From Ruminococcus flavefaciens (GTDB lineage Bacteria; Bacillota; Clostridia; Oscillospirales; Ruminococcaceae), in NCBI GenBank assembly GCA_023662725.1, contig JAMPIL010000007.1, positions 1 through 64,000 of the forward strand: a DNA stretch of 64,000 nucleotides, read 5' to 3'. Under the pieces are notes generated by a model. That model did not search any database and was not told the DNA's origin. It was given only the letters and a program-made list of their open reading frames with translations. Made by a program: the position numbers and the translations under genes. Every line of letters starts with the position of its first letter. Position 1 is the first letter of the stretch. Positions 4,039 through 38,178 of this stretch are shown here, piece after piece.

Positions 4039-4052
4039 AAAGGAGAACTGCT

Positions 4053-4811: not shown

Positions 4812-4812
4812 A

Positions 4813-23319: not shown

Positions 23320-24155
23320 TAATTATAGATCATTATTCTGGTTTTTATATCAAAAATACAAGATTTTGACTGTTTACTAAAAGTTTCTGCATACATTGGA
23401 ATTTTGTGTTATAACGAAAGATGACAGAAGCAGCGTGACATTTCATAAACGGTATGTTTTTCATGTGTAAAGTACTAATTTTTTCGGTGGGATATAATAT
23501 TTTTTATATGTTATATTTTATTTCGGCTTTTTATGCTATAATGTTACATAAAGATATTGACGAAATATCTGCAAATATTGCATGAAAATCGGAGATGATT
23601 TATTTGGACAAGTTGTCAATTGAGGATGATTGTATATTATCTTAAAGAGAAACTATTGCAAAAAGTAAAAAATTAGACGATTGATATATAAAATTAGGAA
23701 GAGTCTTATTGTTACAAAGTTTATTAAGTCTGATTTTCCAGTTCCAGCGGCAAAAACAACTTATTCATTAATACAGAATATTTTCTTCATGTGCCATGCA
23801 TTTCGAGAGTAACAATCTCGCTGTTAAAGCAGTTTAGTACATGAAGAATATAGAGATTACAGTCAGAGTTTTTATGTTTCTTCTTTGATTATTTTACTGT
23901 ACCTTATTTTCCTAATCTTTTATGGTTGACTATTATTTTTACCGGATTGTTTGGCGCCTATTAACAGCTCTTTGCAGTATAAAACTTCAGAGACTTTAAG
24001 ATACACTAAGTATAAACATACTGTTTGTAATTGATATGTATCGTATAATTCATCATAATAATCATTTTACACAAATAATTATATTATACTATTAGTAATC
24101 AAGTTATTATAATTATTTAATAAATAAATCTATATAATTATGTGGGAGAAAGAAT
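23320..24155 (+). other. Long leader between promoter copy A and the carrier protein gene
   Basis: This 836-base stretch has no full gene. It shares short blocks with the leader after promoter copy C: the first 11 bases (TAATTATAGAT), a T-rich GG element near 23478-23491, and a block at 23605-23642 that includes TTGGACAAG and TGTATATTATC. In that block the frame from ATG 23595 encodes 16 residues ending SIEDDCILS before a TAA, close to STEDNCILS in the copy C frame. A weaker open frame (KFIKSDFPVPAAKTTYS) lies near 23720-23815. It may be a decayed first gene of the operon. Confidence 0.45.
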
Positions 24156-24431
24156 ATGAAAAAACAAGAAGTAAAAGAATGTTTTAATCAAATTGTTCGC
24201 AACAGTTCAAGTACGAGCGCTATCAAGGAGTCAATTGATCCGGATTCCAATTTTATTGAAGATTTAGGATTTGATTCACTTGCAACCATAAAACTTATTT
24301 CTGATATTGAGGAAAAGTTTGATATTGAGTTTGATGTAAATGAGTTGGTATATGATGTTATTGGTTGTTACGGAACTCTTCTTGATAATGTGATGAGAAA
24401 AATTGAAAAGAAGGGCAGTGGCAATGTATAA
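24156..24431 (+). CDS. Acyl/peptidyl carrier protein
   Basis: A 91-residue carrier protein preceded by GGGAGA. The phosphopantetheine attachment site is intact (EDLGFDSLATIKLISDIEE, Ser in DSL), followed by EKFDIEFDVNEL. It is the first gene of the biosynthetic operon and overlaps the next gene, an adenylate-forming enzyme, so the two probably work as a loading pair: the enzyme activates a carboxylic acid and places it on this carrier. Discrete carriers are not part of a standard radical SAM RiPP pathway. Confidence 0.9.
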   Translation: MKKQEVKECFNQIVRNSSSTSAIKESIDPDSNFIEDLGFDSLATIKLISDIEEKFDIEFDVNELVYDVIGCYGTLLDNVMRKIEKKGSGNV

Positions 24432-25677
24432 GGATTTATTGAGTATTATAAACTATGCTTACAATAATTCGGCGTTTTACAAGAAGCTGTATGATAACTC
24501 GGATATAAAGCCGGAGGATATCAAATCTGAGGAAGATATCGCTAAGTTGCCGATAGTGACAAAGAGTATGATCCAAAGCGATCAGGAGAATGTGATCTCA
24601 GAGGAGTTCACGATATACCCGAAGTCGTCACTACTGGATGTTAAGCGTACATCAGGTTCTACTGGAAAGTATCTTAAGATATACTGGTATGATAAGGACG
24701 AAGTCAGATCTATGGTGCCTTTGTGGCTTGTTCGTAACAGAAAGTATAAAGTATCTCCGGATATGAATTTCAGCTCTTTTTATTCAACAATTTATAAAGC
24801 TAATAATATTGTTGATATGCAGGAAATAACCAAAGAAAATAACTATCTTGGTTTTTCTAAACTTGATCTTACTTACGAAAAGATGGTTGAGTATTACAAG
24901 ATGCTTATTGATTTTAAGCCTGTATGGATGATGCTTCAGCCGAGTATTGCGTATATGATGGCGGAAATCGTTAAGAGAGAAAAGCTTCCGACACTTTCAA
25001 GTCTTAAATATCTTGAGCTTAGCGGTGAATTTCTTTTTGATGAATACAGAAAAGAAATTGACGAAGTATTTGGCATCAAGTCTGTGAATATGTACGGCTG
25101 TAATGAGACTAATTGTGCTGCTATTGAACTTGATGATGGAAAACTGCATGTGCTTAAAGAAAATGTGTATGTAGAGGTTATTAAAAATGGAAAACCAGTA
25201 TTTGATGAAGAGGGCGATATATATATTACGTCTCTTAATAATCACGCCATGCCTTTCATCAGGTATGAAACAGGTGACAGAGGTGTTCTTTCCGATAATA
25301 ACGGTGATCTTATTCTTGACGTTAAGACAGGTCGCATAAGCGAGTATATTCTGCTTGAAAATGGCGAAAGGCTTAACAGCTATACTATTTCTGGAGCTAT
25401 GGAATACACCAATGAGAATATGCAAAATGTTATCAAGCAGTATCAGGCTATTCAGACGGGAATAAATGAATTTAAAATGGCTATGGTCATAGATCCTAAG
25501 TTCAGTGGCTGGAAAGAGGCAGTAGAAGAATGCTTCCTTGAAAACATCAAGAAAAATCAGCTTATAAACACCAATTGGAAATTTGAATGGACAGACTTGA
25601 TTTGTCCTGAAGCTGAAACAGGTAAATATAGATTTTTCAAAAATGAGATAGTGACAAATAATGAAAAAGCGGATTGA
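24424..25677 (+). CDS. PaaK/CapK-like adenylate-forming enzyme
   Basis: The start at 24424 overlaps the carrier gene by 8 bases. The 417-residue protein belongs to the phenylacetate-CoA ligase-like branch of the ANL superfamily. The P-loop is TSGSTGKYLKIYW near residue 80, the nucleotide motif is MYGCNETNCAAIE and the hinge region contains YETGDRGVL. The C-terminal subdomain is present. PaaK relatives in biosynthetic clusters often load a carrier protein rather than CoA. The acid it activates is unknown. Its end overlaps the exporter gene by 17 bases. Confidence 0.85.
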   Translation: MYKDLLSIINYAYNNSAFYKKLYDNSDIKPEDIKSEEDIAKLPIVTKSMIQSDQENVISEEFTIYPKSSLLDVKRTSGSTGKYLKIYWYDKDEVRSMVPLWLVRNRKYKVSPDMNFSSFYSTIYKANNIVDMQEITKENNYLGFSKLDLTYEKMVEYYKMLIDFKPVWMMLQPSIAYMMAEIVKREKLPTLSSLKYLELSGEFLFDEYRKEIDEVFGIKSVNMYGCNETNCAAIELDDGKLHVLKENVYVEVIKNGKPVFDEEGDIYITSLNNHAMPFIRYETGDRGVLSDNNGDLILDVKTGRISEYILLENGERLNSYTISGAMEYTNENMQNVIKQYQAIQTGINEFKMAMVIDPKFSGWKEAVEECFLENIKKNQLINTNWKFEWTDLICPEAETGKYRFFKNEIVTNNEKAD

Positions 25678-27466
25678 AGATTTAAAAAGTTTTTTCAATA
25701 TAATTGGCTTTAGTATGAAAATCAGCTTTAAAACTTCTAAGCTATATTTCATCTTAAATATTATAATATGCTGCTGTATTGCAGCTACTCCGTTTGCGTC
25801 AATTTACCTGGCCAGCAAGACCATAGGCTTTGTTACAGAGGGCCTTATGGGTGGTAAAACTAAGGATGAGATGATAAAAGGCTATGCTTTGCTTATCATT
25901 TTAACTCTGCTTTTGAATGTGGCAGAAAACGTATTACAATCTATCTCAATATATATTAGAAAGATGTACACCGAACTTATTAATTCAAAATTAAAAGTTG
26001 ACATAATGAAAAAAGCTGCTTTTCTGGAAATGAAACATTTCGACTCTCCGGATTTTTTTGATACGCTCAATGATGTCAATTACAATAGCTTTATGATTTC
26101 GGATATGGTTTTTGTTATTTTTGAGTTTTTTAGGTCGTTCGTACAGATGATAGTGGCATTTGTGAATATAGCACTGTGGAAGTGGTTTGCACCGTTAATT
26201 GTTCTTATTACGTCTGTACCAACGATGCTTGTTAAGCGAAAACAACTAGATTCTGAATATGTTTTTCAGAAGAGTAATATGAAATATGACCGTCAGATGT
26301 TTTATGTCACGAACATAGCTGTTGATAGAGAGTATTCCTCAGATGTTAAAATGTACGGTTTGTTTCCTGAACTTAAACACAAATATTCTGTCATCTGGAA
26401 AGAAATGTTTAACAAAAGGAGAAAGCTGATCAGAAAATACACAATACTTGCAATGCTGTTTGACTGTTTGCCGCATATTGTAATGACTATTTTTTTGATA
26501 ATACTTGGTATCAGCGTACTAAACGGCAATATGACTGTACAGAATTACAGCTATATAAATGGTCTTTTATCTCAGCTTAGTCCTTTAATACTTAATGTTA
26601 TTATTTGTTATGGCGTTATTTTCGACAGTAAGATACGTCTAAAAAACTATATGAGTTTTATGAATATGTCTACTGAAGATGATGATGTGGTCTGTGAAGA
26701 ATTTAATTGCAATGATTTTGAAATTGAATTCAGAAATGTTTATTTCAGATATAATGATAAAAGTGATTATGTATTAAAAGGGATCAGCTTTAAAATAAGA
26801 AGCGATAAAACCTATGCGTTGGTTGGTATGAACGGATGCGGAAAAACTTCGATAATCAAGTTAATACTCAGGTTTTATGAACCGACGGACGGTGAGATAC
26901 TTATTAACGGAAAAAATGTAAAATGTTATTCAGTAGATAGTATAAGAAAGCTGTTCAGTCCTATGTTTCAGAAATACAATAATTATGCATTTACCGTTAA
27001 GGAAGATATTTATCTCTCGGATATTGATAATAAAGCCGATGATAAGAGAACTATTTCGTCAGCGTTGCAGAGCGGTGCAGACGAATTTGTCAAGGATTTT
27101 GATGAAAAATATGATACATACCTCACAAGGCAGTTTGAGGATGGCGTTGATCTTTCAGGCGGACAGTGGCAGAAGATAGCGCTTTCAAGGACTATTTTCA
27201 GAGATTCTGTTATGTATATACTTGATGAACCTTCATCTGCGCTTGATGCTGAGTCTGAAGATGAACTCTTCATGAGTTTCGATAAGTTATTTGAAAATTC
27301 CGGAGCTATCCTGGTTTCTCACAGGTTATCTAACGTAAAAAAATGTGACAGTATAATTGTTATTGATGACGGCAAAGTGTTAGAAGAGGGAACACATGAG
27401 TATCTGATGGAGCATCCAAATAAATATGCACATATGTTTCAGATTCAGGCGAATAAGTATCAGTAA
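25661..27466 (+). CDS. ABC exporter (fused membrane and ATPase domains)
   Basis: A 601-residue half-transporter. Transmembrane helices lie in about residues 1-335, and the ATPase domain spans about 350-601 with Walker A LVGMNGCGKTS, signature VDLSGGQWQKIALSRT, Walker B VMYILDEPSSALDAES and the H-loop VSHRLSN. There is no N-terminal C39 peptidase domain, so leader removal must be done by another protein, presumably the subtilase-like product next door. It probably exports the finished peptide. Confidence 0.92.
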   Translation: MKKRIEDLKSFFNIIGFSMKISFKTSKLYFILNIIICCCIAATPFASIYLASKTIGFVTEGLMGGKTKDEMIKGYALLIILTLLLNVAENVLQSISIYIRKMYTELINSKLKVDIMKKAAFLEMKHFDSPDFFDTLNDVNYNSFMISDMVFVIFEFFRSFVQMIVAFVNIALWKWFAPLIVLITSVPTMLVKRKQLDSEYVFQKSNMKYDRQMFYVTNIAVDREYSSDVKMYGLFPELKHKYSVIWKEMFNKRRKLIRKYTILAMLFDCLPHIVMTIFLIILGISVLNGNMTVQNYSYINGLLSQLSPLILNVIICYGVIFDSKIRLKNYMSFMNMSTEDDDVVCEEFNCNDFEIEFRNVYFRYNDKSDYVLKGISFKIRSDKTYALVGMNGCGKTSIIKLILRFYEPTDGEILINGKNVKCYSVDSIRKLFSPMFQKYNNYAFTVKEDIYLSDIDNKADDKRTISSALQSGADEFVKDFDEKYDTYLTRQFEDGVDLSGGQWQKIALSRTIFRDSVMYILDEPSSALDAESEDELFMSFDKLFENSGAILVSHRLSNVKKCDSIIVIDDGKVLEEGTHEYLMEHPNKYAHMFQIQANKYQ

Positions 27467-27480
27467 CAGAGGGTGAAAAA

Positions 27481-28596
27481 GTGAGTAGTTTGAAAGCGGC
27501 TATTATCGATGACGGAGCTGCAGATATACTGTTTGAAAAAGTAAAAAATATTACTGTAAGCGAAGATTTACAGCTGAATGAAGATGCAAGTTTTACAAAC
27601 GAACTTAGTCATTCGTCCATTTGTATGAGTATCATAAAGAAGTATTCAGATATAAGTGATGTTGAATGGCTGAATATAGATATTATGAATTCGCATCATA
27701 GAAGCGGTGTCAACAGCTTTATAAAAGCGCTTGAATATTGCCGCAGAAATAATATTAAGCTGATACATCTTAGTATAGGAAGCCGAAACTTTAATGATTT
27801 TGAAAAGATAAGAGCTGAAATAGAACTACTGCTTCAAAAAAACACAGTGATAATTGCAGCTCTGTCAAATGAAAATGTATTTACTGTTCCAGCTTGCATT
27901 GACGGAGTTATCGGAGTGAAGTTTTCAATTGATCTAAAGGATAATGAGTTGTATTATCTTGATAATGCTCCTGAAAAGATAAACTTTCTTGCGTCGTCAA
28001 GGCATATTCTAAGACTTGAAGGAAAGCTTGACATCTCTTCAATATCGAATAGTTATGCAACGCCTGTTGTTACAGCTGCGGCAATAAATGTGTTAAAAAC
28101 AGAACCATTTTTGAATGCTGATGGTGTAATTGAGAGAATAAAAAACAAATCAAAGAAAGATTTCTTAGTTTTTGAAAAAACAGAACCATTCATTGATGGA
28201 AATGCAGATATGCTTACTATTCCGGTAGTTCTTGTTAAACTCAATAACAGTTCGCTTCAAAGCAAGCTTGTAAAAGAGCTTAAAGAATTGTTCATACAAA
28301 ATGGATATAATGCATTTTGCGCTTATAGTACTACCGATGGTGAGAACTTGCTGCCTGAGAAAAGACTGCTGAATTATCTTCTGTATATTCAGAAATTTTA
28401 CAATAGTGATATTATTATCCTTGGATATTCAGATGAAAAGCTGTTTTCAGATTTTCAAAGCTATGATGTTATAGTTTCTGATGATAATGATCAAAAAGAT
28501 ACTTCCGTTGCCTTAGTGCATTATTCAAAAATTAGTGATCGTAATAATGTATTTAATAAGATATTGCAAATATTTTATGAAGGAGAATATCAATGA
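27481..28596 (+). CDS. Degenerate subtilase (S8-like) of the peptide maturation system
   Basis: A 371-residue protein starting at GTG after AGAGGGTG. The first 200 residues follow the subtilisin order: Asp in AIIDDGAA, His in ELSHSSICMSIIKK, an Asn-containing ALSNENVF strand and Ser in NSYATPVVTAAAINVL. The motifs are weaker than in secreted subtilisins and there is no signal peptide, so it is cytoplasmic. Residues about 215-371 form an extra domain without a match I can name. S8-like proteins accompany Clo7bot-type clusters. Leader cleavage is the likely role. Confidence 0.75.
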   Translation: MSSLKAAIIDDGAADILFEKVKNITVSEDLQLNEDASFTNELSHSSICMSIIKKYSDISDVEWLNIDIMNSHHRSGVNSFIKALEYCRRNNIKLIHLSIGSRNFNDFEKIRAEIELLLQKNTVIIAALSNENVFTVPACIDGVIGVKFSIDLKDNELYYLDNAPEKINFLASSRHILRLEGKLDISSISNSYATPVVTAAAINVLKTEPFLNADGVIERIKNKSKKDFLVFEKTEPFIDGNADMLTIPVVLVKLNNSSLQSKLVKELKELFIQNGYNAFCAYSTTDGENLLPEKRLLNYLLYIQKFYNSDIIILGYSDEKLFSDFQSYDVIVSDDNDQKDTSVALVHYSKISDRNNVFNKILQIFYEGEYQ

Positions 28597-30023
28597 ATAA
28601 TACCCCGTATATAAAACTTTTGAAAACACCGTTGGGTAAGTATTTCTACGATGTTAACAAAAACGATATTGTAAATATCAGTGATGAGCTGTATGTATAC
28701 TTAGGAGCGAAAGATATGAATGCTGATCTTTCACAGTCCGCTGCTGAGGAGATGGAATTTCTTAAGAGTAACGGTTATCTTTCAACTCATAGAGTTAAGT
28801 TTATAAAGCATTATCTGACTGACAAAATTGAAGATTACCTCGACAGAAAGTGTTCCAAACTCACTCTTCAGCTTACACAGAACTGTAATTTCAGATGCTC
28901 ATATTGTCCATATACAACTGCTGAGTTTTATACAAATCGTTCACACAATTCAAAAAGAATGAGTGAGGAAGTTGCAATTAAAGCGATAGATTTTCTTGCA
29001 GATCATTCACGAAGTAAACAGTATGTTTCAATAGCTTTCTATGGCGGCGAGCCTTTGCTTGAATTTCCGCTTCTCAAGAAGCTGGTTGCTTATGCAGAAG
29101 AGGTATTCATAGGCAAGAGAATTGATTTTACGACAACGATTAATGGTTCATTACTTACTGAGGAGAGCATTTCTTTTTTTGAGAAACATAATTTTGATCT
29201 TATGATAAGTATTGACGGCACCAAGAAGGTTCATGACAGAAACAGAAAGTTTGCGGCAACCGGTAAGGGAACTTTTGATACTATAGTTAATAATCTGGAG
29301 GGTGTATACAACTCTCACAGAGAATATTTTAATAATAAAGTAACTATCAATTCGGTTATGGATCCACGTCTTCCTGCAAAAGAATACTACGAACTTGAGA
29401 ATAAAAATGAGATGTTTCAAGAAGTCAATATTATGCGTACAGTTGTAGATGACTTTAATAATGTTAACAGACATGCATTTGATGATAATTTCGTCATAGA
29501 CACTTCAATACTTACATTTAAGGCGTTGATGTCATTAATAAACAGATATCCCAAGGATAAGGTCAGCAGTAATCTTGTAGTCGCTGAGCTTACTGAAAAG
29601 CAGAAATCCGAAAAGTTTATAAGACCTGGTAACCAGCTTGGTGATACAGATGCTCCTTCTGGCCCATGTATTCCGGGAAGCAAACTGTTAGTTGACGTAA
29701 ATGGTACAATACATATTTGTGAAAAGGTCAGCGAAACTTCTAAGGCATTTGTCCTTGGAAATGTTTATGATGGATTTGATTACGATAATATTAGGAAGTT
29801 GCTGAATATAGGAGCGCTTACTGCTGAAAAATGTCAGAATTGTTTTGCATTCAATTTATGCTCTATTTGTCAAAGAAAATGTAATGTAGGTGACGAACTT
29901 TCAGGTGCTGTTAAAAGTGAATCCTGCGAGTGGTCAAAGAATATTGCATTGGATATGATCTATAATAAAATATTCTATAGCGAACTGAGCAGTATTCTTA
30001 ATAGCGAGGTGGGAATAAAGTGA
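28593..30023 (+). CDS. Radical SAM/SPASM peptide maturase (CcpM-like)
   Basis: A 476-residue enzyme whose start overlaps the subtilase stop. The N-terminal 85 residues resemble a peptide-recognition region (YIKLLKTPLGKYFYDVNK). The radical SAM cluster is CNFRCSYC near residue 103, followed by SIAFYGGEPLLEFPLL. A SPASM-type auxiliary cluster region begins at CIPGSKLLVDVNGTIHIC and continues to CQNCFAFNLCSICQRKC. This is the layout of Cys-rich peptide maturases (TIGR04068-like). It probably installs thioether or related cross-links on the 60-residue precursor encoded at 31583. Confidence 0.88.
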   Translation: MNNTPYIKLLKTPLGKYFYDVNKNDIVNISDELYVYLGAKDMNADLSQSAAEEMEFLKSNGYLSTHRVKFIKHYLTDKIEDYLDRKCSKLTLQLTQNCNFRCSYCPYTTAEFYTNRSHNSKRMSEEVAIKAIDFLADHSRSKQYVSIAFYGGEPLLEFPLLKKLVAYAEEVFIGKRIDFTTTINGSLLTEESISFFEKHNFDLMISIDGTKKVHDRNRKFAATGKGTFDTIVNNLEGVYNSHREYFNNKVTINSVMDPRLPAKEYYELENKNEMFQEVNIMRTVVDDFNNVNRHAFDDNFVIDTSILTFKALMSLINRYPKDKVSSNLVVAELTEKQKSEKFIRPGNQLGDTDAPSGPCIPGSKLLVDVNGTIHICEKVSETSKAFVLGNVYDGFDYDNIRKLLNIGALTAEKCQNCFAFNLCSICQRKCNVGDELSGAVKSESCEWSKNIALDMIYNKIFYSELSSILNSEVGIK

Positions 30024-31177
30024 GAATAGCAATTTATCCTTTTAATGCGGAATGTATGGCTTTTTCAGAATTCAAGGACTTACTTGACTCTGAATATTGC
30101 TTCAGTGAGGCAGCTTCGCCGAGAAGCTGGGGATTTGCGGGAATGGATATTGAAACGGTGGACGGTCCTGAAAAGATCAAGAAGTCGCCTAAAGAATTTA
30201 CAAAGGCAAACGATATGCTTGTTATTCCTGATTTCACAATTGAACCGTCTGCTGCCAAGTCTCTGATAAATGAGATAGTTAATTATATACCGTCGGTTAA
30301 GAATGTATTCTGCTGTGCTTGTTTTGAAGATATACAGCTTAATGAAATTAAAGAAGCGTGTGCAAGATCTAATACAGAGTTTATTAATGTTTTAGATTTT
30401 GGTGCAGCTGAAAAAGAATTCGCGTATTACGAAACACCTGAAAAAAGATATGCATTCACAGATAATAAGAGTGTCTTTAAAGTCTACAAAGAGGTCACAA
30501 ACTGTGATATTCCTATTTGCGCAGTATCAGGAGAATGGGAAACAACAGGAAAGTTCAATATTGAACTAAAGCTCCTACGCAATCTTAGAGATCAGGGATA
30601 CAATGTATCAATGGTTGGTTCTAATTTTTTTTCATCATTCTTTGGTGTAAATCGTTTTCCTGATTTTATGTTTAGTGGTGCAATTAGCGAAACAGAAAAA
30701 CCTCATGTTTTCAACAGATATTTGAATCGGATTGTAGTGAATGAAGATCCTGATATTCTGATCGTTGGTGTTCCCGGTGCTATGGAGCGCTATAACGACT
30801 ATGAGACAAACAGATTTGGTATTCTTCCATTCATAACTTTTCAGGCTATCAGACCGGATTATTTAATCTTAACTACTGTATACAGAGAAAAAAGCAAATC
30901 ATTACTTGAAGAACTCATAAATAAGTGCAAGTACAGATACGGCGTTAAACCCGATACGATACATTTATCAAATGCGTTGCTAGAACCAAGTGAACTCTAC
31001 ACAGAAGGCATGGAAATTGATTATGAAAATATGGATAGAGTTAATTCTGTTATAACAAATGAGTATGCTGATACTGACGGATTTGTGGTAAATCTCTTGG
31101 CTGACGGCTGTGATAAGATTGTAACTGAGAGATTAATAAGAAAACTCGGCGGTATCAGTGTTGGAGCAAATGAATAA
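30020..31177 (+). CDS. TIGR04066-like peptide maturation system protein
   Basis: A 385-residue protein with a GTG start that overlaps the radical SAM stop. It begins MRIAIYPFNAECM, has an ISGEWETTGKFNIELKLLRNL-like central part (here VSGEWETTGKFNIE) that reads like a P-loop-related Rossmann segment, and alternates strands and helices throughout. From memory of Clo7bot clusters this matches the TIGR04066 family, whose biochemical function is unknown. Its position directly behind the maturase is conserved in such systems. Confidence 0.72.
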   Translation: MRIAIYPFNAECMAFSEFKDLLDSEYCFSEAASPRSWGFAGMDIETVDGPEKIKKSPKEFTKANDMLVIPDFTIEPSAAKSLINEIVNYIPSVKNVFCCACFEDIQLNEIKEACARSNTEFINVLDFGAAEKEFAYYETPEKRYAFTDNKSVFKVYKEVTNCDIPICAVSGEWETTGKFNIELKLLRNLRDQGYNVSMVGSNFFSSFFGVNRFPDFMFSGAISETEKPHVFNRYLNRIVVNEDPDILIVGVPGAMERYNDYETNRFGILPFITFQAIRPDYLILTTVYREKSKSLLEELINKCKYRYGVKPDTIHLSNALLEPSELYTEGMEIDYENMDRVNSVITNEYADTDGFVVNLLADGCDKIVTERLIRKLGGISVGANE

Positions 31178-31190
31178 GGGGACTGTAAAA

Positions 31191-31460
31191 ATGAATGATA
31201 TCAGAGAAAAAGTGAAAAACATACTCATATCTGAGTTTGATGTAAAAAATGACAGAATAAAAGATGGTGAAGACATATCATTTTTTCTGGCAAATATAGC
31301 TTTTGATCCAAAAAGTTTTATTTATTTTGTTCTTTATATTGAAAAAGCCTTTGGCATAAGATTTTCGGAGAATGATTTTGACAACGAGAATTTTTATAAT
31401 CTCGGTGGATTTTGTGATATTTTATCAGATTATTGCAAAATCAAGGAGAATGCTTGCTAA
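31191..31460 (+). CDS. Acyl-carrier-related protein lacking the carrier serine
   Basis: The start at 31191 follows AAGGGG; earlier in-frame GTG and TTG codons lie inside the upstream gene. The 89-residue protein has the carrier-protein four-helix pattern (ILISEFDV, IEKAFGIRFSENDFD), but the usual DSL attachment site reads AFDPKSF, so there is no Ser at the right place. This fits the TIGR04069 type of peptide maturation proteins. It cannot carry a phosphopantetheine arm there and may act as a structural or binding protein. Confidence 0.78.
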   Translation: MNDIREKVKNILISEFDVKNDRIKDGEDISFFLANIAFDPKSFIYFVLYIEKAFGIRFSENDFDNENFYNLGGFCDILSDYCKIKENAC

Positions 31461-31582
31461 GGCAAGCACGCAAAATAGAGAATACTTATCTTTTGAAGTT
31501 TTCATTTTTATACTATGGTTTCACTTTCGTGAGTCGGGCGAGATTGAAATATATTAAAATTGTAACATAAGGAGTAATAATC

Positions 31583-31765
31583 ATGAAAAAATTAAGAAAA
31601 GTAAATATTTCAAATAATACTATTGAGATGTATGGTTGCTATAAGGATAAATTCTGTCAGTGTATGGGCACATACGCTTATTCATCACAATATTCTGGAA
31701 GCTCTATATATCATATGGTTACTCAGACAACAACAACACCAGTTAATCCTGGTGGACACAAGTAA
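31583..31765 (+). CDS. Cys-rich RiPP precursor peptide (Clo7bot/CLI_3235-like)
   Basis: A 60-residue peptide with a strong AAGGAG site. The leader-like N-terminus is MKKLRKVNISNNTIEMYG, rich in Lys and Asn. The core has three Cys (residues 19, 25 and 27, in CYKDKFCQC), then a Tyr/Ser/Gly stretch (YAYSSQYSGSS) and a C-terminal Thr run within VTQTTTTPVNPGGHK. It follows the maturation genes and precedes a terminator-like hairpin, as expected for a precursor needed in excess. The Cys residues are natural targets of the radical SAM enzyme; the Ser/Thr residues could accept sugars from the glycosyltransferase downstream. Confidence 0.82.
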   Translation: MKKLRKVNISNNTIEMYGCYKDKFCQCMGTYAYSSQYSGSSIYHMVTQTTTTPVNPGGHK

Positions 31766-31821
31766 TTAAGCATAAAATAAAACAATAAACTTGATCCGAC
31801 TTAAGAGTTTAACAGAAAAAA

Positions 31822-31856
31822 TGAGGGCAAACCTGAAAATTTGCTCTCAGTTTTTT
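31822..31856 (+). terminator. Terminator or attenuator after the precursor gene
   Basis: TGAGGGCAAA (31822-31831) pairs with TTTGCTCTCA (31840-31849), with one G-U pair, followed by TTTTTT after one G. It is placed between the precursor and the tailoring genes. Leaky termination here would yield more precursor than enzyme mRNA for the genes downstream. Confidence 0.8.
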
Positions 31857-31915
31857 CTGATAATTGGATAATGATTTATTTTAATTGATTTTGACAAATA
31901 TTAGGAGATCTTAAA

Positions 31916-34480
31916 ATGAAAAGTAAGGGAAAAATGCTCACTGTTGGAGTAATACTGGATAAAAGAGGCGACCCGCCTTATGTCAGCGTGAACAAACTAT
32001 GGCGTGAGACCATTGATATAATATCTCAAAAGTATTATACAGTTGTTTTTGAAGTGAATTCCTACTTCGTAGAGAATAATGATGAATATAAAGAATTTGC
32101 CGATAAGATCGATGTGTTGTTTCTTTTATCTCCGTATTATACAGTTGACAGAACTTACAAAGAATTTCCCATTGTGTTTTATGGGCTTGGTTCTATGCAA
32201 AAAGGTGGAGCATGGCTTGCGGATAATCATTATACTTTCAGATGCTATGACAAGGTTATCCTCAATTGTACAAGCTGTGTGAATATTTTTGATAAGCTCG
32301 TAAAGGAGCAGTCATTAAGCAGAGTTATGATCCCTTTTGGTGTAGATACAGATATATTCAGATATGCGGCAAATAAAACTCTGCTCAGAAAAAAATACAA
32401 TATACCTGAAGATGCATTTATTGCAGTATATTCAGGAAGAATAAATCATCAGAAAAACCCGTTTGTACTTCTAAGCGCTATCCGGGATCTGAGAAAAAAG
32501 TATAACAATCTGGTATTTATGTTTCTTGGTTCATTTGATGACTTTTATATACCGGAATTCAATGAAAACAAAGCTATTGATATTAAAGAAGCATTTATTT
32601 CTGAAGTGGAAAACTTTGGAATTGAATCAGGTATCATTCTATTTGATACTCAGGATGATACAAGTAAATATGCTGAATTATTGGGTCTCGCTGATATAGG
32701 GATCAATGCTACAACTCTTATAAGTGAAAATTTTGGATATACACCTGTTGAAATGCAGGCTTGCGGTCTAGCTGTTGTTGGTACATCATGGGGCGGTCTT
32801 AAAGACACTATAATAGATGAAGTAACAGGTTTTAAAATAGAGACAGTTCACAGTAAATTTGGTGCAAGGATCAATATGGAACAGTTGAAAGAAAAAATCG
32901 AATTCTTGATAACACATGATGACATAAGAAAACAAATGTCACAGAGTGCAAGACTTAATGCAGAAAATAACTATTCCTTGAAATTGTTTGCAAGGAATAT
33001 TAATGATATCATAAATGAAACTTACTATGATTATATTGAGTGTGATCGTAATGACAGTGATTATGCCGTTGATGATAGAATATTTGATATGTCAGAAAAG
33101 ATACATAACAAATATAGAAGTCAGGAGCGCCATGTAAGTTGGGAACATCTTCATCCTGATCTTGATTACGAATTATATGAAATGGTAGCTTCTGAATGTG
33201 CTGATAAAAAGGCTGAAGATACAGTATGGTTCGGTGATAGTATAATATCGAAGGGGTTTGACTGGGAATACAGTAATGGAACTCTGGTTTCACATGATCC
33301 AAGGTGGAATAATAATTTTGAACTTTCGAGTTGTAAGATAAACAGTGAAGAAATGCGTGTTATGGAAAATATTATTTCCGGCGAAACAGTATTGTCACTT
33401 GAAAACAGAATGAATATAACTCATAATGAGCTTATAGAATTACTGTACCGCCTTACTGATAAAGGCTTTATTATTCCATGGAACAAAACCAATACAGTTC
33501 AAACGTCTGTGGCTGCTGTTGTTATTCCACATTACAGTACCGGAACGGAAATAGAACTGTGTTGGCTTAAGAATGCTTTAAAAAGCGTTGAAGTGCAGAC
33601 TGACAAAGAATGGAAGATTATCATTGTTGATGATGCTTCTCCCGAAAGCCATGTGAAAGAATATTTGAGAACAATATCAGAAGAAAGTCATAACAGGATA
33701 GAAACAGTTTTCCTGAGAAAAAACAAGGGGCCTGGAAATGCAAGAAATGTAGGTGTATTGAGAGCTTCTATGCTTGGATGTCCATTTATTCTTTACCTTG
33801 ACTCAGATGATATAGCATCGCCAGAAAGAATTGAAAGGACAAGAAATGCTTTTATGACGCATCCGTCTGTTGGAGTTGTTTACAGTTCTTTTGATGTTAT
33901 AGACGAAAACGGAAAGAATGTTGAGAATATAAATATTCTGCCGTCCATTCGCGAAATACAGGAACAATTAAGATCAGATCCGCCGCAAGGAAAAGGCGTT
34001 TGGCGTAAAATGGGCATTGAAACAGGATACATAAACCTAACTTCTTCAACTTCCGTAAGGACTTGTGTAGCGCTTAAATATCCTTTCCCTCAGGAAAGAG
34101 TTTCAGAGGATTATTATACATGGCTTGTTTATTCGGCAAGTGGATGGGAATATATGTATCTTGATTCACTCTGTACAAAATACAGGATTCCACAAAATAA
34201 AGATGGCTCAAGAACTCGCAGCCTTGTGGGCGGTAATCATATGTTTAATTTGAAAAAGAGCCTGATTGATGTAAAGGGATTTCAAAAGGCTCTTGAACTT
34301 GCCTGCAATAACGGTGAGATCAACAATGATGATAAAAACATGCTGATGATAGCTTTCCTTAAGAAAAAGGCAGAGTCAATGAAAAAAGACGGCGAAGATG
34401 AGATAGCAAGAAACTATATCCAAAAGGCTGATAGGATCAAACAGAGTATAACCAGTCTCTCCTCAGCTTACAATCATTAA
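31916..34480 (+). CDS. Two-domain glycosyltransferase (GT4-like plus GT2-like)
   Basis: An 854-residue fusion with AGGAG upstream. Residues about 1-380 form a GT4-type GT-B domain (IPFGVDTDIFRY, then FIAVYSGRINHQKNPFVLL, and ENFGYTPVEMQACGLAVVGT with the EX7E-like motif). Residues about 470-525 look like a small winged-helix or PqqD-like domain (ENRMNITHNELIELLYRLTD). Residues about 530-800 form a GT2-type GT-A domain (AAVVIPHYSTG, WKIIIVDDASPESHV, RKNKGPGNARNVG, DXD motif in FILYLDSDDIASP). One protein could therefore add two sugars in turn. The likely acceptor is the precursor peptide; donors are unknown. Confidence 0.82.
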   Translation: MKSKGKMLTVGVILDKRGDPPYVSVNKLWRETIDIISQKYYTVVFEVNSYFVENNDEYKEFADKIDVLFLLSPYYTVDRTYKEFPIVFYGLGSMQKGGAWLADNHYTFRCYDKVILNCTSCVNIFDKLVKEQSLSRVMIPFGVDTDIFRYAANKTLLRKKYNIPEDAFIAVYSGRINHQKNPFVLLSAIRDLRKKYNNLVFMFLGSFDDFYIPEFNENKAIDIKEAFISEVENFGIESGIILFDTQDDTSKYAELLGLADIGINATTLISENFGYTPVEMQACGLAVVGTSWGGLKDTIIDEVTGFKIETVHSKFGARINMEQLKEKIEFLITHDDIRKQMSQSARLNAENNYSLKLFARNINDIINETYYDYIECDRNDSDYAVDDRIFDMSEKIHNKYRSQERHVSWEHLHPDLDYELYEMVASECADKKAEDTVWFGDSIISKGFDWEYSNGTLVSHDPRWNNNFELSSCKINSEEMRVMENIISGETVLSLENRMNITHNELIELLYRLTDKGFIIPWNKTNTVQTSVAAVVIPHYSTGTEIELCWLKNALKSVEVQTDKEWKIIIVDDASPESHVKEYLRTISEESHNRIETVFLRKNKGPGNARNVGVLRASMLGCPFILYLDSDDIASPERIERTRNAFMTHPSVGVVYSSFDVIDENGKNVENINILPSIREIQEQLRSDPPQGKGVWRKMGIETGYINLTSSTSVRTCVALKYPFPQERVSEDYYTWLVYSASGWEYMYLDSLCTKYRIPQNKDGSRTRSLVGGNHMFNLKKSLIDVKGFQKALELACNNGEINNDDKNMLMIAFLKKKAESMKKDGEDEIARNYIQKADRIKQSITSLSSAYNH

Positions 34481-34587
34481 GCGGAATATTGGCAAAAGTA
34501 CAAAAAATAATAAAAACATTGCATTCAGAGAATGTCATGTATTGGTCATTAAGGAGAGGCTGAACAGAGCAGAATAGGAGAATATAT

Positions 34588-35532
34588 ATGGCTTTTTTAC
34601 TTACAAATTCAGTTGCAGTTGCCGGTCACGAAAAAACTATAAAACTATTGAATGAAGGTAGATCTTCTTTAGATGCGGTAGAAAGCGGAATACGACTTGT
34701 AGAATCTGATCCGGAAGTCAGGTGGGTTGGTTTCGGAGGTCTTCCCAATATGCTGGGGAAAGTACAGCTTGATGCAGGAATAATCGATGGTTCAAATTTC
34801 CATGCTGGTGCTGTCGGTGCTATTTCCGGATACGCTCATCCTATTTCTGTTGCGAGAAAACTGATGGATGAGCTTCCTCATGTTCTTCTCGTTGGAGAAG
34901 GTGCAGAGAGATTTGCTCATGACATAAATGCTGAAAGATCTGATAATCTTACAGATATTTCTGTTGCTGAATGGAAAGCATGGCTTGATGAGCATCTTAA
35001 TGAAAGTGAAAAGAAGAATTGGCCGAATATATCTCTGATAAGGCCTTCGCAGCTTACTGCCACAAATAAAACTGCCAAGGGAACGACTGTTTTTCTTGCG
35101 ATAGATAATAATGGAAATATTAGCGCAGGTTCAAGCACGAGCGGATGGAGTTTTAAATATCCCGGCAGGCTCGGAGATTCTCCTGCTATTGGCTCAGGCA
35201 TTTATGCTGATAACAGATATGGAGCAGCAGCTTGCACAGGAATGGGAGAGCTTACTATACGTTCAAATACTGCACATTCCGTTATTCTGTATCTTAAAAT
35301 GAAAATGAGTTTGAAAGAAGCCTGTCTTGAAGCGCTTAATGATCTCAGAAATATTCATACTGATTTCAGAGGCGGAGTTACCATCTATGCTATGGATAAA
35401 AATGGTGAACACTGTGCCGTTTCTGCAAGAGCTGAACAGGATGGTCTCCCTGAATGTGATCCGTATTTTTGGTATTGGAACGGTGTTGAGCCATCTGTTC
35501 AGAAGATCAATGCAGATATGTATGAATGGTAA
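34588..35532 (+). CDS. Ntn-hydrolase of the aspartylglucosaminidase / isoaspartyl peptidase family
   Basis: A 314-residue T2-family protein. The self-processing site is probably the Gly-Thr in TAKGTTVFLAIDNNG, where the new N-terminal Thr becomes the nucleophile. Substrate-binding segments GSSTSGWSFKYPGRLGDSP and GAAACTGMGEL are clear. Human-type enzymes have Asp before the Thr; here it is Gly as in isoaspartyl peptidases. No signal peptide, so it acts in the cytoplasm. In the cluster it could trim a glycosylated or isoaspartyl-containing intermediate, or give self-protection. No such enzyme is a standard RiPP component. Confidence 0.85.
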   Translation: MAFLLTNSVAVAGHEKTIKLLNEGRSSLDAVESGIRLVESDPEVRWVGFGGLPNMLGKVQLDAGIIDGSNFHAGAVGAISGYAHPISVARKLMDELPHVLLVGEGAERFAHDINAERSDNLTDISVAEWKAWLDEHLNESEKKNWPNISLIRPSQLTATNKTAKGTTVFLAIDNNGNISAGSSTSGWSFKYPGRLGDSPAIGSGIYADNRYGAAACTGMGELTIRSNTAHSVILYLKMKMSLKEACLEALNDLRNIHTDFRGGVTIYAMDKNGEHCAVSARAEQDGLPECDPYFWYWNGVEPSVQKINADMYEW

Positions 35533-35553
35533 ACAGCTTTTGTGAGGTTTGAT

Positions 35554-36612
35554 ATGTTTAAGGATTGGTTGAATGCGAATTATTTTAGGAATAGCTCCGG
35601 CGGAATAGACACTACAGTAGACTCACTCTCTGATTGTCTGTCACAAACGTCTTATGTTATCGGTAAATTGAAATTCGGAATTCCTGATTTTTACAGAGCT
35701 TACCTGAACGAGAGTACATTGAAGCTGGAAATTAAGAATGATGAAATATTATACTTCGGTACGATTGATAATGTATGGATAAAAGGTATGATAGGCATAC
35801 TTCAGTATAATGAGGGAATTACTCCTTCTGACAGGATCTCAGGAGTTTTGAAGGACGGTGAACCTGCGATAATTCATCCGATAGTTGAAAGACTTTCGTT
35901 TCAGGAGTTTTATGATCCGGATTATAATGACAGCAAGCCTAAGTCGGATCACTATTTTTCGGTTATAGGTGAAGATAAGAATAACTTGTTTTTTGTCGAT
36001 AATCCTGCCGTTATCAATATGAATAAGTTTACTCCGTATAAAGCGAACAGCGAAGTTGGCATTATCAGCAAAAAAGAATTTGATGAGGCTTTGACAGATT
36101 TTTGTGAGGTCGGTGCATTTGTATTTGACCTTGACAGAATGAAAGAGGTATCAAAACAATGCGAAGAAGTTTTTAGGCTTTCTTATAATAATTACGATAA
36201 AAAATCATTATTCAATGATGATGTATATACATTTTATGGTGCAGAGGCAATAGAAAAACTATCGGAACTGTTTGAAAAAGGTGATATGTATTTTTCACAG
36301 GAAGCTCCGTCGCATGACAGAGATATCATGAAGTATTTTATTTGGAGGATCTGGCACATAAAAGGAAGAAGAAAACTTCAGGTGCAGTATCTTAGAGAGG
36401 CTTACGGAAATGACAACAGAGCGGCTTCTGATCTTGTTGATGCACTTATGGATTCAGTTAAATTCTGGGATCTTTTAAACAACAACCTGTACAAGGATTT
36501 TCTGAAAGGCAAAGAACGTATAGACTCGAAATATGTTCAGATAACGGACGAAATATTAACTGCTGAGAACAAAATGAATCAGGCATACCGCAGCTTTATA
36601 GAAACCATCTGA
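35554..36612 (+). CDS. BtrH-like (papain-fold) putative acyltransferase or peptidase
   Basis: The start at 35554 follows GAGGT; a GTG four codons earlier would absorb it. The 352-residue protein looks like the BtrH N-terminal family, which is related to C39-type Cys peptidases. A possible nucleophile Cys lies near residue 26 (DSLSDCLSQTSYVIG). The GEPAIIHP strand follows, with a His in KSDHYFSVIGEDKNNLFFVDNPA, matching the HY.xVxG...xxDP pattern. The C-terminal half is helical. BtrH transfers an acyl group from a carrier protein in butirosin synthesis. With a carrier and two adenylating enzymes in this cluster, acyl transfer to the peptide or its sugar is the best inference. Confidence 0.6.
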   Translation: MFKDWLNANYFRNSSGGIDTTVDSLSDCLSQTSYVIGKLKFGIPDFYRAYLNESTLKLEIKNDEILYFGTIDNVWIKGMIGILQYNEGITPSDRISGVLKDGEPAIIHPIVERLSFQEFYDPDYNDSKPKSDHYFSVIGEDKNNLFFVDNPAVINMNKFTPYKANSEVGIISKKEFDEALTDFCEVGAFVFDLDRMKEVSKQCEEVFRLSYNNYDKKSLFNDDVYTFYGAEAIEKLSELFEKGDMYFSQEAPSHDRDIMKYFIWRIWHIKGRRKLQVQYLREAYGNDNRAASDLVDALMDSVKFWDLLNNNLYKDFLKGKERIDSKYVQITDEILTAENKMNQAYRSFIETI

Positions 36613-36681
36613 GCGATAATAACGTAATCTATAAAATGTTAATGATCAGAATATAAGATAAAAAGAATAGAGTGATATAAT

Positions 36682-38178
36682 ATGAATAATGTTCTTGATA
36701 TGATCGAAAAATCCGCAGCTCTTTATGCTGACCGAATAGCATTTTCTGATCATAAAAAAGAGATCACATACAAAGAGCTTATTGCAAAGGCTAAATCTGT
36801 TGGACAGTATATTCTTGATATTAATCCTCAGCACAAACCTGTTATCATAATTACACAGCAAGATATAGAGTCAGTTATAATGATTCTTGGTGTTCTTTAC
36901 AGCGGAAATGTTTATATTCCTATGGACAGCAGCTATTCTGATGAAAAAATACTATCCGTTCTTGATAAAGTTTACAGTAACATAGTTTTGTGCCGAAAAA
37001 GTGATGTGCGTGTTTTCAAAACTAAGGCTGATATACATTTCTGCACTTATGAAGAAGCAAAGGACTGTAAGGCGGATAGTGATATGATCCGAAAGATAAG
37101 AGAAAGCATTGCTGATACAGATCTGCTGTGCTGTTTTCTTACGTCGGGTACAACAGGAGAACCCAAATGCGTAATGAAATCTCATCACAATATTGTTAGT
37201 ATGGTGAGGGCGTTTACAGAACAGTTTGATTTTTCCAGCAATGATGTTTTTGGCTGTCAGACTGCTTTTGATTTTGATGTTTCAAATAAATCGGTCTTTA
37301 TTTCACTATATCTTGGCGCTCAAGTATATATAATCCCGAAAGAATTGTTTATTTTTCCGGGTAAACTTGTTACGGATTTCAACAGGAGAAAAGTATCCGT
37401 TCTGATTTGGTCCGTATCGGCGCTGACGCTGCTTGCAAGAGTAAGAATAATGAAAAACGCAAAGTTCCTTTATGTGAATAAGATCATGTTTTCAGGCGAG
37501 TCAATAGCTTATGATACGATCAGGTACTGGAAAGAAAATCTTGAAGAGACTTTATTTGTAAACCTTTATGGACCGACAGAAATGACCGGTAATGCTCTCT
37601 ATTATGAAGTCAAGTCGATAGATGAAAACAAGATCATACCGCTCGGAAGTCCTATGCCAGATACAAAAGTATATTTGCTTGACGAAAACAGAAGGCTTAT
37701 TACTCAGAATAACGTAAAAGGTGAAATATATATAGGCGGTAACTGCCTTGCAATGGGCTATTATAACGATAATGAAAAAACAAAAAAGGCATTTATTAAA
37801 AATCCTTTTAGTAAAAGCTATTCTGATATCATATATAGAACCGGTGATATTGGATATAAAAACGATGATGGTGATTATGTATTTTCTGACCGGAGAGATT
37901 TACAGGTGAAACGAAACGGATATAGAATAGAACTGTCGGAAATAGAGGCAATAGTTATGAGGTCCGGTCTTATTTCTGTATGCTGTTGTGTATTCAGAAG
38001 ATCAAAAAACGAAATATGCCTTTATTATCAGTCTGAAAGTGAATGTTACAATCAGCTTTATAGTCTGATGAAGAGAGAACTTTCTTGGTATATGATTCCT
38101 AACAAAATTGAAAGAATAGATCATATACCGTTAAATTCACATGATAAACCTGATAGGGAAAAACTTATAGAAATGTAA
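36682..38178 (+). CDS. Stand-alone amino-acid adenylation (NRPS A-domain-like) enzyme
   Basis: A 498-residue ANL enzyme without a fused carrier or condensation domain. Core motifs: A3 LTSGTTGEPKCVMKSHHNI near residue 157, A4-A5 region with FDFDVSNKSVF and NLYGPTEMTGNAL, A7 YRTGDIGYKNDDGD, A8 VKRNGYRIELSEIE and the A10 Lys in NSHDKPDREKL. It probably activates an amino acid or related acid and loads it on the carrier encoded at 24156. The specificity code was not decoded. It is the last intact gene of the cluster. Confidence 0.87.
   Translation: MNNVLDMIEKSAALYADRIAFSDHKKEITYKELIAKAKSVGQYILDINPQHKPVIIITQQDIESVIMILGVLYSGNVYIPMDSSYSDEKILSVLDKVYSNIVLCRKSDVRVFKTKADIHFCTYEEAKDCKADSDMIRKIRESIADTDLLCCFLTSGTTGEPKCVMKSHHNIVSMVRAFTEQFDFSSNDVFGCQTAFDFDVSNKSVFISLYLGAQVYIIPKELFIFPGKLVTDFNRRKVSVLIWSVSALTLLARVRIMKNAKFLYVNKIMFSGESIAYDTIRYWKENLEETLFVNLYGPTEMTGNALYYEVKSIDENKIIPLGSPMPDTKVYLLDENRRLITQNNVKGEIYIGGNCLAMGYYNDNEKTKKAFIKNPFSKSYSDIIYRTGDIGYKNDDGDYVFSDRRDLQVKRNGYRIELSEIEAIVMRSGLISVCCCVFRRSKNEICLYYQSESECYNQLYSLMKRELSWYMIPNKIERIDHIPLNSHDKPDREKLIEM

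Follow-up and report, generated by a model that had tools for sequence, protein, structure and literature searches.

A conserved 12-gene cassette in Ruminococcus flavefaciens combines a CcpM-like radical SAM peptide core with candidate glycosylation and acylation enzymes

Results

Gene content and layout of the cassette

We analyzed a 64,000-nucleotide stretch of DNA from Ruminococcus flavefaciens, a bacterium of the gut or rumen (contig JAMPIL010000007.1, positions 1 to 64,000; hereafter the window), in which 12 open reading frames (ORFs) on the plus strand, at 24156-38178, combine the core genes of a ribosomally synthesized and post-translationally modified peptide (RiPP) system of the CcpM kind with candidate genes for acylation and glycosylation. 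The first-pass annotation of this DNA had reported a radical S-adenosylmethionine (SAM) RiPP cluster with such additions, which the 12 ORFs and their family matches confirm. That the 12 genes form one pathway is well supported; its substrates, its sites of modification and the order of its steps we infer. With some reservation, we favor the reading that they are one cassette for a ribosomal peptide that would be crosslinked, glycosylated and given an amide-linked acyl group by the logic of lincosamide synthetase. The basis for this reading is the gene content, the conservation of the cassette as a unit, purifying selection, the fold match and candidate catalytic triad of the protein encoded from 35542, and the holo-type motif of the carrier protein. 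The gene content and the co-occurrence expected in the annotation have held; its "Clo7bot" label has not, and its "BtrH-like" label finds no support in Pfam BtrH_N.

The gene order is carrier protein, PaaK-like ligase, ATP-binding cassette (ABC) exporter, S8-like protease, radical SAM/SPASM maturase, TIGR04066 protein, TIGR04069-like carrier-related protein, precursor, GT4-GT2 glycosyltransferase (GT), N-terminal nucleophile (Ntn) hydrolase, the "BtrH-like" 35542 protein and an adenylation domain (A-domain) (Table 1). As annotated, the genes from 24156 to 31460 overlap or abut and the remaining genes follow on the same strand: the ORFs overlap at 24403-24431, 25661-25677, 28593-28596, 30020-30023 and 31158-31177, and 14 bp (27467-27480) lie between the ABC exporter and S8 genes. 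Gaps of 122 bp and 150 bp stand upstream of the precursor gene and between it and the GT gene, and the gaps after the GT gene are, in order, 107, 9 and 69 bp. The terminator-like hairpin downstream of the precursor gene might perhaps set precursor expression high and tailoring expression lower.

Table 1. Features of the cassette and the basis of each assignment
Feature	Position	Strand	Basis
Stand-alone acyl/peptidyl carrier protein, 91 residues	24156-24431	+	PF00550, 40.8 bits (cut-off 20.8); motif DSL
PaaK-like adenylate-forming ligase	24403-25677	+	TIGR02155, 91.6 bits; PDB 4r1l
ABC exporter, membrane and ATPase domains	25661-27466	+	PF00005, PF00664
S8-like (subtilisin-like) protease, probable leader peptidase	27481-28596	+	QhpE NF049966, 59.9 bits; motif blocks
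Radical SAM/SPASM peptide maturase, CcpM-like	28593-30023	+	TIGR04068, 446.8 bits; nested in CcpM tree
TIGR04066 protein	30020-31177	+	TIGR04066, 220.3 bits (cut-off 200); adjoins maturase
Carrier-related protein, TIGR04069-like, without phosphopantetheine serine	31158-31460	+	Expected gene place; TIGR04069, 24.5 bits
Precursor peptide, 60 aa	31583-31765	+	NxIExY motif in a conserved leader; 3 Cys and 11 Ser/Thr in a variable core
Terminator-like hairpin	31822-31849	+	Within the 150-bp precursor-GT gap; folding z -6.6; sequence conserved in 3 genomes
Two-headed glycosyltransferase: GT4 (about 1-370), linker, GT2 (about 535-760)	31916-34480	+	PF00534, PF00535
Ntn-hydrolase, asparaginase-2 family	34588-35532	+	PF01112 (Asparaginase_2), 220.7 bits (cut-off 27)
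Predicted papain-fold, probably carrier-dependent amide synthase, 356 residues, CcbD/AziU2-U3/CtaG type	35542-36612	+	AlphaFold model; Foldseek, VIA-align
Stand-alone adenylation domain of nonribosomal peptide synthetase type	36682-38178	+	PF00501, 186.2 bits; TIGR01733, 294.1 bits (cut-off 317.4)

Conservation as a unit

The nearest named carrier of the cassette is the metagenome-assembled genome (MAG) Ruminococcus flavefaciens RUG11186 (L097), in which all 12 genes occur in identical order (L121). Window and L121 align by blastn in three pieces, 24082-31633 (78% identity), 31755-34459 (84%) and 34570-38178 (81%), and the rest of the window is unaligned; homology starts 74 bp 5' of the first gene and stops at the final base of the last. 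The sole sizeable coding stretch of the cassette left unaligned, 31634-31754, is most of the precursor core. At the protein level the Ntn-hydrolases of the two are 95% identical; the GT and the PaaK ligase reach 84% each, the A-domain 78%, the amide synthase 77%, the maturase and the carrier 74% each, and the precursor 43%. The ratio of nonsynonymous to synonymous substitution rates (A-domain excluded; amide synthase represented by its first 51 codons only) is 0.02-0.21 for nine proteins, 0.49 for the carrier-related protein and 0.36 for the precursor. Judged from these sequence comparisons, the decorating enzymes are constrained at least as much as the maturase, whereas the peptide varies. 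In a third MAG (L099), genes one to ten are present in unchanged order, followed by 37 residues from the start of the eleventh (49% identical); the L099 stretch, like that of the related locus L060, ends at a chosen limit and not at a contig end. Directly upstream of the L099 copy (2421-5328), an agr-type-like set is visible by eye (response regulator, kinase, AgrB-like protein and small peptide).

Co-occurrence of the tailoring genes with the maturase

The annotation's case depended on tailoring genes that travel with the maturase, and in related clusters (L121, L099, G256 and L061) the two do co-occur. G256, an uncultured Oscillospiraceae bacterium, belongs to a different genus of the same family. 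Its genes run ligase, carrier, PaaK, ABC, S8, maturase, TIGR04066, carrier-related protein and three precursors; downstream of these are sugar-binding protein-, permease- and membrane protein-like genes (by eye) and then a GT block, in which GT4 plus linker, GT2, hydrolase and amide synthase are 53, 49, 69 and 37% identical to their counterparts in the window. The G256 glycosyltransferase (L141 15595-18172) is divided over two ORFs, GT4 plus linker and GT2; the two-headed enzyme of the window may be a fusion, or the G256 enzyme may have been split. The block of GT, Ntn-hydrolase and amide synthase thus has the same gene order in both genera, with other genes between it and the core in G256. 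The window's own genome (assembly of 3.1 Mb, 70 contigs) carries a second CcpM cluster on contig C20 (L061) with a permuted order: truncated GT, Ntn-hydrolase remnant, amide synthase, carrier, PaaK, ABC, S8, maturase, TIGR04066, carrier-related protein and precursor. The remnant corresponds to residues 31-80 of the L099 hydrolase (expect value, E, of 4.7e-7 against a small target) and contains a frame change and a stop. Though eroded, the block is still together in L061, on the other side of the core genes, which argues against chance adjacency.

A scan with PaaK alignments, one genome per species, gave five loci, and in all five the CcpM maturase and TIGR04066 genes adjoin. The scan used two short exact patterns taken from three sequences beside CcpM, and one of the loci (L098) is the query L060; the figure therefore describes an association among close relatives and not an unbiased rate. 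Profiles were also run over a draw of 197 genomes of the same family, which evidently did not include G256 and G874 (the R. flavefaciens MAG), both of which carry cassette genes. The profiles of the BtrH-like protein (E <= 1e-8) and of the GT (E <= 1e-40) each hit 1 of the 197, the genome from which the window comes; both profiles matched it twice, in every case next to one of its two CcpM clusters. The Ntn-hydrolase profile (E <= 1e-30) found two genomes, its own and G145 with a weak match (113 bits), and the PaaK profile (E <= 1e-40) found three: its own with two matches, G060 at 324 bits and G021 at 149 bits. Of the seven PaaK-bearing rows in a 35-maturase tree (sequences under 200 bits or under 430 residues excluded), six fall into one group (support 94/80) and L101 stands apart. 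PaaK presence needs two changes on this tree, and 0 of 500 shuffles gave a count as low (the PaaK gene of L100 overlaps the maturase ORF, and its presence is taken from a tblastn match). The grouping indicates that the module is a lineage trait of one CcpM branch, plus one separate case. One distant relative of the maturase is plasmid-borne, in Enterococcus raffinosus (33% identity).

To the right of the cassette lie recombinase-type (DUF4368) and integrase-core fragments (window 38782-39673 and 41069-41695), which are consistent with mobility. A recombinase-like ORF downstream of the second cluster, on C20 (13681-14445), resembles one downstream of the window cluster (tblastx E 7e-17).

The core RiPP genes

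The best family for the window maturase is TIGR04068, under its cut-off of 500 bits, and its Clo7bot identity was rejected (TIGR04334, 58.3 bits; cut-off 600). Its sequence contains a CxxxCxxC motif at residues 98-105 and eight more cysteines toward the C-terminus, at positions identical in the R. flavefaciens MAG. It nests inside the CcpM tree together with the paralogous L061 maturase (support 97/91), which exceeds the TIGR04068 cut-off (515.3 bits); it also resembles the RumMC (187.2 bits) and PapB (173.8 bits) models, under the cut-off in both cases. We assigned the window system as CcpM-like because of this nesting, the TIGR04066 pass, the TIGR04065 precursors of related loci and a shared leader motif. 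Going by sequence, the maturase would work as part of a CcpM-type system and lies within the CcpM tree, an assignment that stops short of the NCBIfam equivalog. The CLI_3235-type core of the first-pass annotation accordingly holds at the level of the family, with the window maturase and precursor under the NCBIfam cut-offs. Among the maturation families that it had named, TIGR04066 is passed; TIGR04068 and TIGR04069 (cut-off 70) are matched below threshold, and TIGR04065 has no match for the window precursor.

Nor does TIGR04065 match the precursors of the R. flavefaciens MAG and L099. Four precursors of relatives pass it (three of L060, one of L100), and those of L061 (24.8 against a cut-off of 26) and L101 (15.6) score lower. 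The leader of the window precursor aligns with those of relatives and has their common motif. For the TIGR04066 protein, a profile of 32 sequences (window and 31 relatives) had as its top PDB match 2g0t (E 0.001), which we take to belong to a DUF1611-type family, and comparison with a DUF1611 protein by hhalign gave a weak relation (E 0.015); this unexplained core protein of CcpM systems may be a diverged DUF1611-like protein.

The acyl-carrier-related protein that the annotation had seen at 31158 is TIGR04069-like, weakly so; since it has no phosphopantetheine serine, it does not qualify as another functional carrier of the ordinary type. The serine is missing in all 11 TIGR04069-like proteins chosen and aligned, four of them from loci in which no PaaK was seen. 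The protein must therefore act without a phosphopantetheine arm at that site, and core CcpM systems may rely on a carrier fold that carries nothing. The S8-like protease scores under the family cut-offs (PF00082, 15 against 21.8 bits; QhpE NF049966, cut-off 165); its Asp10, His44 and Ser-motif blocks can be aligned across all five sequences compared, that of the window among them.

The acyl module

The true carrier protein that had been annotated is borne out by its PF00550 score and by the DS at the attachment site, which is present in eight of eight chosen and aligned carriers of PaaK-bearing loci; such clusters thus possess one carrier of the usual kind. This bears on an oddity of CcpM systems, in which the carrier-like protein has no serine (11/11) as against the serine-bearing carrier of PaaK-bearing loci (8/8). 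The PaaK-like gene adjoins the carrier gene in the window, L060, L061, L099, L100, L101, L121 and L138. Its product is under the family cut-offs (TIGR02155, equivalog cut-off 646.3; PF00501, 26.1 against 29.9 bits), and a three-sequence profile matches the phenylacetate-CoA ligase 4r1l with E 1.8e-20, so that the PaaK-like assignment was upheld. PaaK is the constant partner of the carrier, and the second ligase differs among relatives: an A-domain in the window, an A-domain fused to a carrier in L100 and an acyl ligase in L101 and L060.

The A-domain is likewise as annotated, and its PDB matches are A domains of linear gramicidin synthase. By motif positions and GrsA numbering, we take its specificity code to be D-V-K-I-M-S-L-G-N-K, and that of the R. 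flavefaciens MAG to be D-S-K-I-M-S-L-G-N-K. The aspartate suggests an amino acid, and the lysine at position 239 is reminiscent of some domains for acidic residues; neither the code nor this lysine was used to assign a substrate. Once the model for adenylation domains in general is set aside, DltA is the NCBIfam family that the A-domain matches best (261.7 bits, cut-off 476). This would suit an alternative of self-protection, in which A-domain, carrier, GT and amide synthase modify the surface of the producer much as Dlt modifies teichoic acid. We hold this to be most improbable: no DltB-type membrane acyltransferase was recognized among the 12 genes, and the model of the amide synthase has a papain-type fold.

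The papain-fold protein at 35542

An AlphaFold model of the 35542 protein has a papain-like N-terminal domain and a helical C-terminal domain, as in CcbD, AziU2-U3 and CtaG (Foldseek, VIA-align), and CcbD is its closest fold match. A candidate triad, C32-H137-D153, is invariant in four 35542-type sequences down to 37% identity. In the model C32 lies at a helix start, H137 before a strand and D153 after the next strand; the triad was assigned by topology and spacing in a region of which parts have a predicted local distance difference test (pLDDT) score below 50. A holo-type carrier is encoded in the same cassette. From the predicted fold, the 35542 protein is probably a carrier-dependent amide synthase of the CcbD/AziU2-U3/CtaG type. 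The earlier "BtrH-like" description survives in part: the predicted fold supports the wider family, whereas membership of Pfam BtrH_N was rejected, the window protein and its homologues having no match. Profile comparison of the 35542 family with five BtrH-type proteins was weak (E 0.059), as was that with a neighbor protein of L101 (E 0.26). When BtrH-type hidden Markov models (HMMs) were run over the collected ORFs, the window protein was not among the matches at E <= 5, nor did the reverse search return a match. A scan of viral_contigs gave no relative of the protein.

The glycosyltransferase and the Ntn-hydrolase

Both halves of the double glycosyltransferase predicted in the annotation are over the Pfam cut-off (GT1, 78.9 bits; GT2, 71.1 bits). 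The best NCBIfam match of the GT4 half is TIGR04157 (glyco_rSAM_CFB subfamily), at 82.3 bits against a cut-off of 400. The annotated Ntn-hydrolase is equally secure from its PF01112 score. Its closest solved relatives are glycosylasparaginases (1p4k, 163 bits), the best match not so named being the L-asparaginase 2zak (126 bits), and its Thr166 and GR.GDSP block, presumably catalytic, align with 1p4k. Glycosylasparaginases cleave the amide that joins a sugar amine to aspartate. A glycosylasparaginase-like hydrolase beside a GT and an amide synthase is suggestive and not proof.

Discussion

Proposed pathway and alternatives

In the pathway that we propose, the CcpM-like maturase would install thioether-type links at cysteines of the 31583 precursor, perhaps to a non-alpha or alpha carbon as in ranthipeptides or sactipeptides, with the TIGR04066 protein and the serine-less carrier-related protein as its accessory factors. 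The two-headed glycosyltransferase would add one or two sugars. The A-domain, and in some way the PaaK ligase too, would activate a carboxylic acid, probably an amino acid, and load it onto the 24156 carrier; the 35542 enzyme would take the acyl group onto its cysteine and pass it to an amine to form an amide, as CcbD/LmbD do with an amino sugar. Either a sugar amine or a peptide amine would serve as the acceptor. The Ntn-hydrolase might remove an aspartyl- or glycosyl-type amide group, the S8 protease would cut off the leader and the ABC protein would export the product. It is plausible, and we put it forward tentatively, that A-domain, free carrier and papain-fold synthase attach an acyl group or amino acid to a glycosylated, radical-SAM-crosslinked peptide, and that the Ntn-hydrolase trims or unmasks this decoration; the product would then unite ribosomal, nonribosomal and glycoside assembly in a single molecule.

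The acyl module could instead act on the peptide itself, at its N-terminus, a Lys or a Ser/Thr, with glycosylation as a separate event. Acylated RiPPs have precedents in the Lys-acylated nostolysamides and in the lipolanthines with their long acyl chain, as the available text describes them (PMC13060382; PMC10435860), and the looser relatives L100 and L101 have ligase, carrier and PaaK beside the maturase, with no GT recognized in the stretches examined. The L100 stretch, however, stops within transporter-type genes, beyond which G256 has its GT block. GT, Ntn-hydrolase (or its remnant) and amide synthase adjoin in all four readable clusters (window, L121, G256 and L061), and CcbD, the closest fold match, couples an acyl group to an amino sugar. 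Acylation of the peptide only is on these grounds rather unlikely.

A second alternative divides the cassette into two side-by-side pathways, a CcpM RiPP (24156-31765) and a small aminoacyl-sugar pathway (31916-38178). The terminator-like hairpin lies between these halves, and in a cluster of G021 (L139) ligases, a carrier, PaaK and possible papain-like transferases (by eye) occur without CcpM. We find this division improbable, because carrier and PaaK are on the RiPP side and their presumed transferase and the A-domain are on the other, and because the unit is conserved end to end, survives rearrangement in L061 and recurs in the other genus, G256.

Our preferred reading of a single cassette for a crosslinked, glycosylated and acylated peptide has several observations against it. 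Most CcpM-type loci are without the module: PaaK and carrier occur in 2 of 39 maturase regions (L060 and L061), a set that is part of all matches and in which some regions are cut by contig ends or by the chosen stretch. A TIGR04066-type gene is present in 29 of the 39, these two included, and the ten regions that show none may not be CcpM systems. The usual content of the other regions is a maturase with TIGR04066, carrier-related, ABC, S8 and binding proteins. The module genes are also separable. An acyl carrier protein-PaaK-ligase-S8-ABC locus of G060 (L138 9401-15458) has no maturase in the 20 kb examined, and no S8 or ABC gene was recognized in the two CcpM clusters elsewhere in that genome, an arrangement which might possibly be a split system; the PaaK copy of G021 sits in a different multi-enzyme cluster, L139 1632-19901, without CcpM. 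No A-domain was recognized beside the G256 block or on the 14.5-kb C20 contig. Since no amino-sugar biosynthesis genes were recognized in the cassette, the sugar amine is an assumption, and the terminator-like hairpin separates the precursor and GT genes.

Further points of this kind concern single proteins. The 35542 model, built with three sequences, is moderate (pLDDT 66, predicted template modeling score 0.64), with values under 50 beside H137 and D153. Pfam BtrH_N (PF14399) is unmatched by the 35542 protein and by its L061 and L121 homologues, and a PDB profile search with a pair of 35542 sequences had as its best match an unrelated protein (E 0.22). In the available text, CcbD/LmbD are described with Cys-His-Glu, not Asp (PMC4351081; PMC12945683). 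A leader-binding RiPP recognition element (RRE) in the glycosyltransferase, suggested by eye for the linker, was unsupported by hhalign, a fragment model and Foldseek. The linker matches PqqD-like RREs weakly (hhalign E 0.29 and 0.21), and its fragment model (pLDDT 48) is a hairpin with three helices, with a best Foldseek E of 0.5; these tests were negative or meaningless. RREs fused to PF00535 glycosyltransferases have been reported in a 2025 paper, according to its available text (PMC12710340).

Three further loci were noted in passing. L139 encodes a carrier, a PaaK-like ligase, a pair each of acyl ligases and ABC proteins, and a short protein that is radical SAM by eye; three of its proteins are papain-like-transferase-like by eye, with BtrH_N unmatched. 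L122 8600-17615 (G807, same genus) is a CcpM cluster whose flanking genes encode a carrier, a ketosynthase-like protein and possibly a BtrH-like one. L122 also has three similar ORFs of 61-79 aa in tandem (5486-6195, minus strand) which, with a radical SAM protein encoded nearby on that strand (1999-3168), look like the precursors of another peptide system. In L104 167-3408 (G789), a BtrH_N protein over the Pfam cut-off has, by eye, a multi-spanning membrane protein on one side and an acyl ligase on the other.

If the preferred reading is true, the cassette would hold, within the literature searched, the first carrier-dependent papain-fold amide synthase to act on a RiPP, and a ribosomal pathway would have borrowed the amide-forming module of small-molecule antibiotics such as lincomycin. 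Peptides that are genetically encoded could then receive non-ribosomal building blocks by a new route. With its A-domain, 91-residue carrier and 356-residue synthase, the module is compact. It may tolerate many peptides, since between close relatives the peptide core is variable and the decorating enzymes are conserved.

Comparison with known systems

The CcpM/CLI_3235 systems of SacP23 in Paenibacillus polymyxa and of Roseburia intestinalis L1-82 have maturase, TIGR04066, carrier-related protein, S8 and ABC genes, as here, and the available text on them reports no holo-type carrier, PaaK, A-domain, GT, Ntn-hydrolase or papain-fold synthase (PMC10731318; PMC4573289). The SacP23 precursor has 61 aa and is Cys-rich, and the Roseburia paper, in its available part, gives no obvious structural gene (PMC10731318; PMC4573289). 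The N-terminus of SacP23 is described as blocked, with m/z 3404 (PMC10731318, available text); this fits N-terminal modification in the wider family and was not used as evidence because the SacP23 cluster is not reported to hold the acyl module. Unlike the CcpM/CLI_3235 standard, the window maturase is under the TIGR04068 cut-off and the window precursor has no TIGR04065 match. For the glycosyltransferase, the family name of TIGR04157 (glyco_rSAM_CFB) couples a GT to radical SAM, and the GT2 half of the window enzyme is unmatched by it. The partner maturase of TIGR04157 is presumably of another family, TIGR04148, in Bacteroidetes.

CtaG (closthioamide) and AziU2-U3, which we take to act in azinomycin biosynthesis, have the same predicted fold as the 35542 protein. 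In the available text, the names of CtaG variants indicate Cys, His and Asp, with a His-to-Asp spacing of 16 as in the 35542 protein; unlike the system in the window, CtaG has been proposed to link building blocks on a thiotemplated route that is independent of the ribosome (PMC6772006). In lincosamide synthetase (LmbC/LmbN/LmbD; CcbC/CcbZ carrier domain/CcbD) the acceptor is a small amino sugar and no ribosomal peptide, and the carrier is a domain of another protein, whereas it is free-standing in the window cassette, as far as the available text goes (PMC4351081; PMC12945683). In the open-licence literature searched, outside which most subscription papers fall, we found no RiPP cluster with a papain-fold amide synthase or with this module, which does not prove that none has been described. 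The acyl groups of lipolanthines and nostolysamides are supplied by Gcn5-related N-acetyltransferase enzymes or polyketide synthase lines. These compounds have an acyl group on a ribosomal peptide, as proposed here, and differ in their lanthipeptide-type backbones; their abstracts, in the part available, name no papain-fold amide synthase and no radical SAM maturase (PMC13060382; PMC10435860). What appears new in the cassette is a CcpM-type RiPP core, of a known kind, joined with a candidate module for glycosylation and lincosamide-type acylation.

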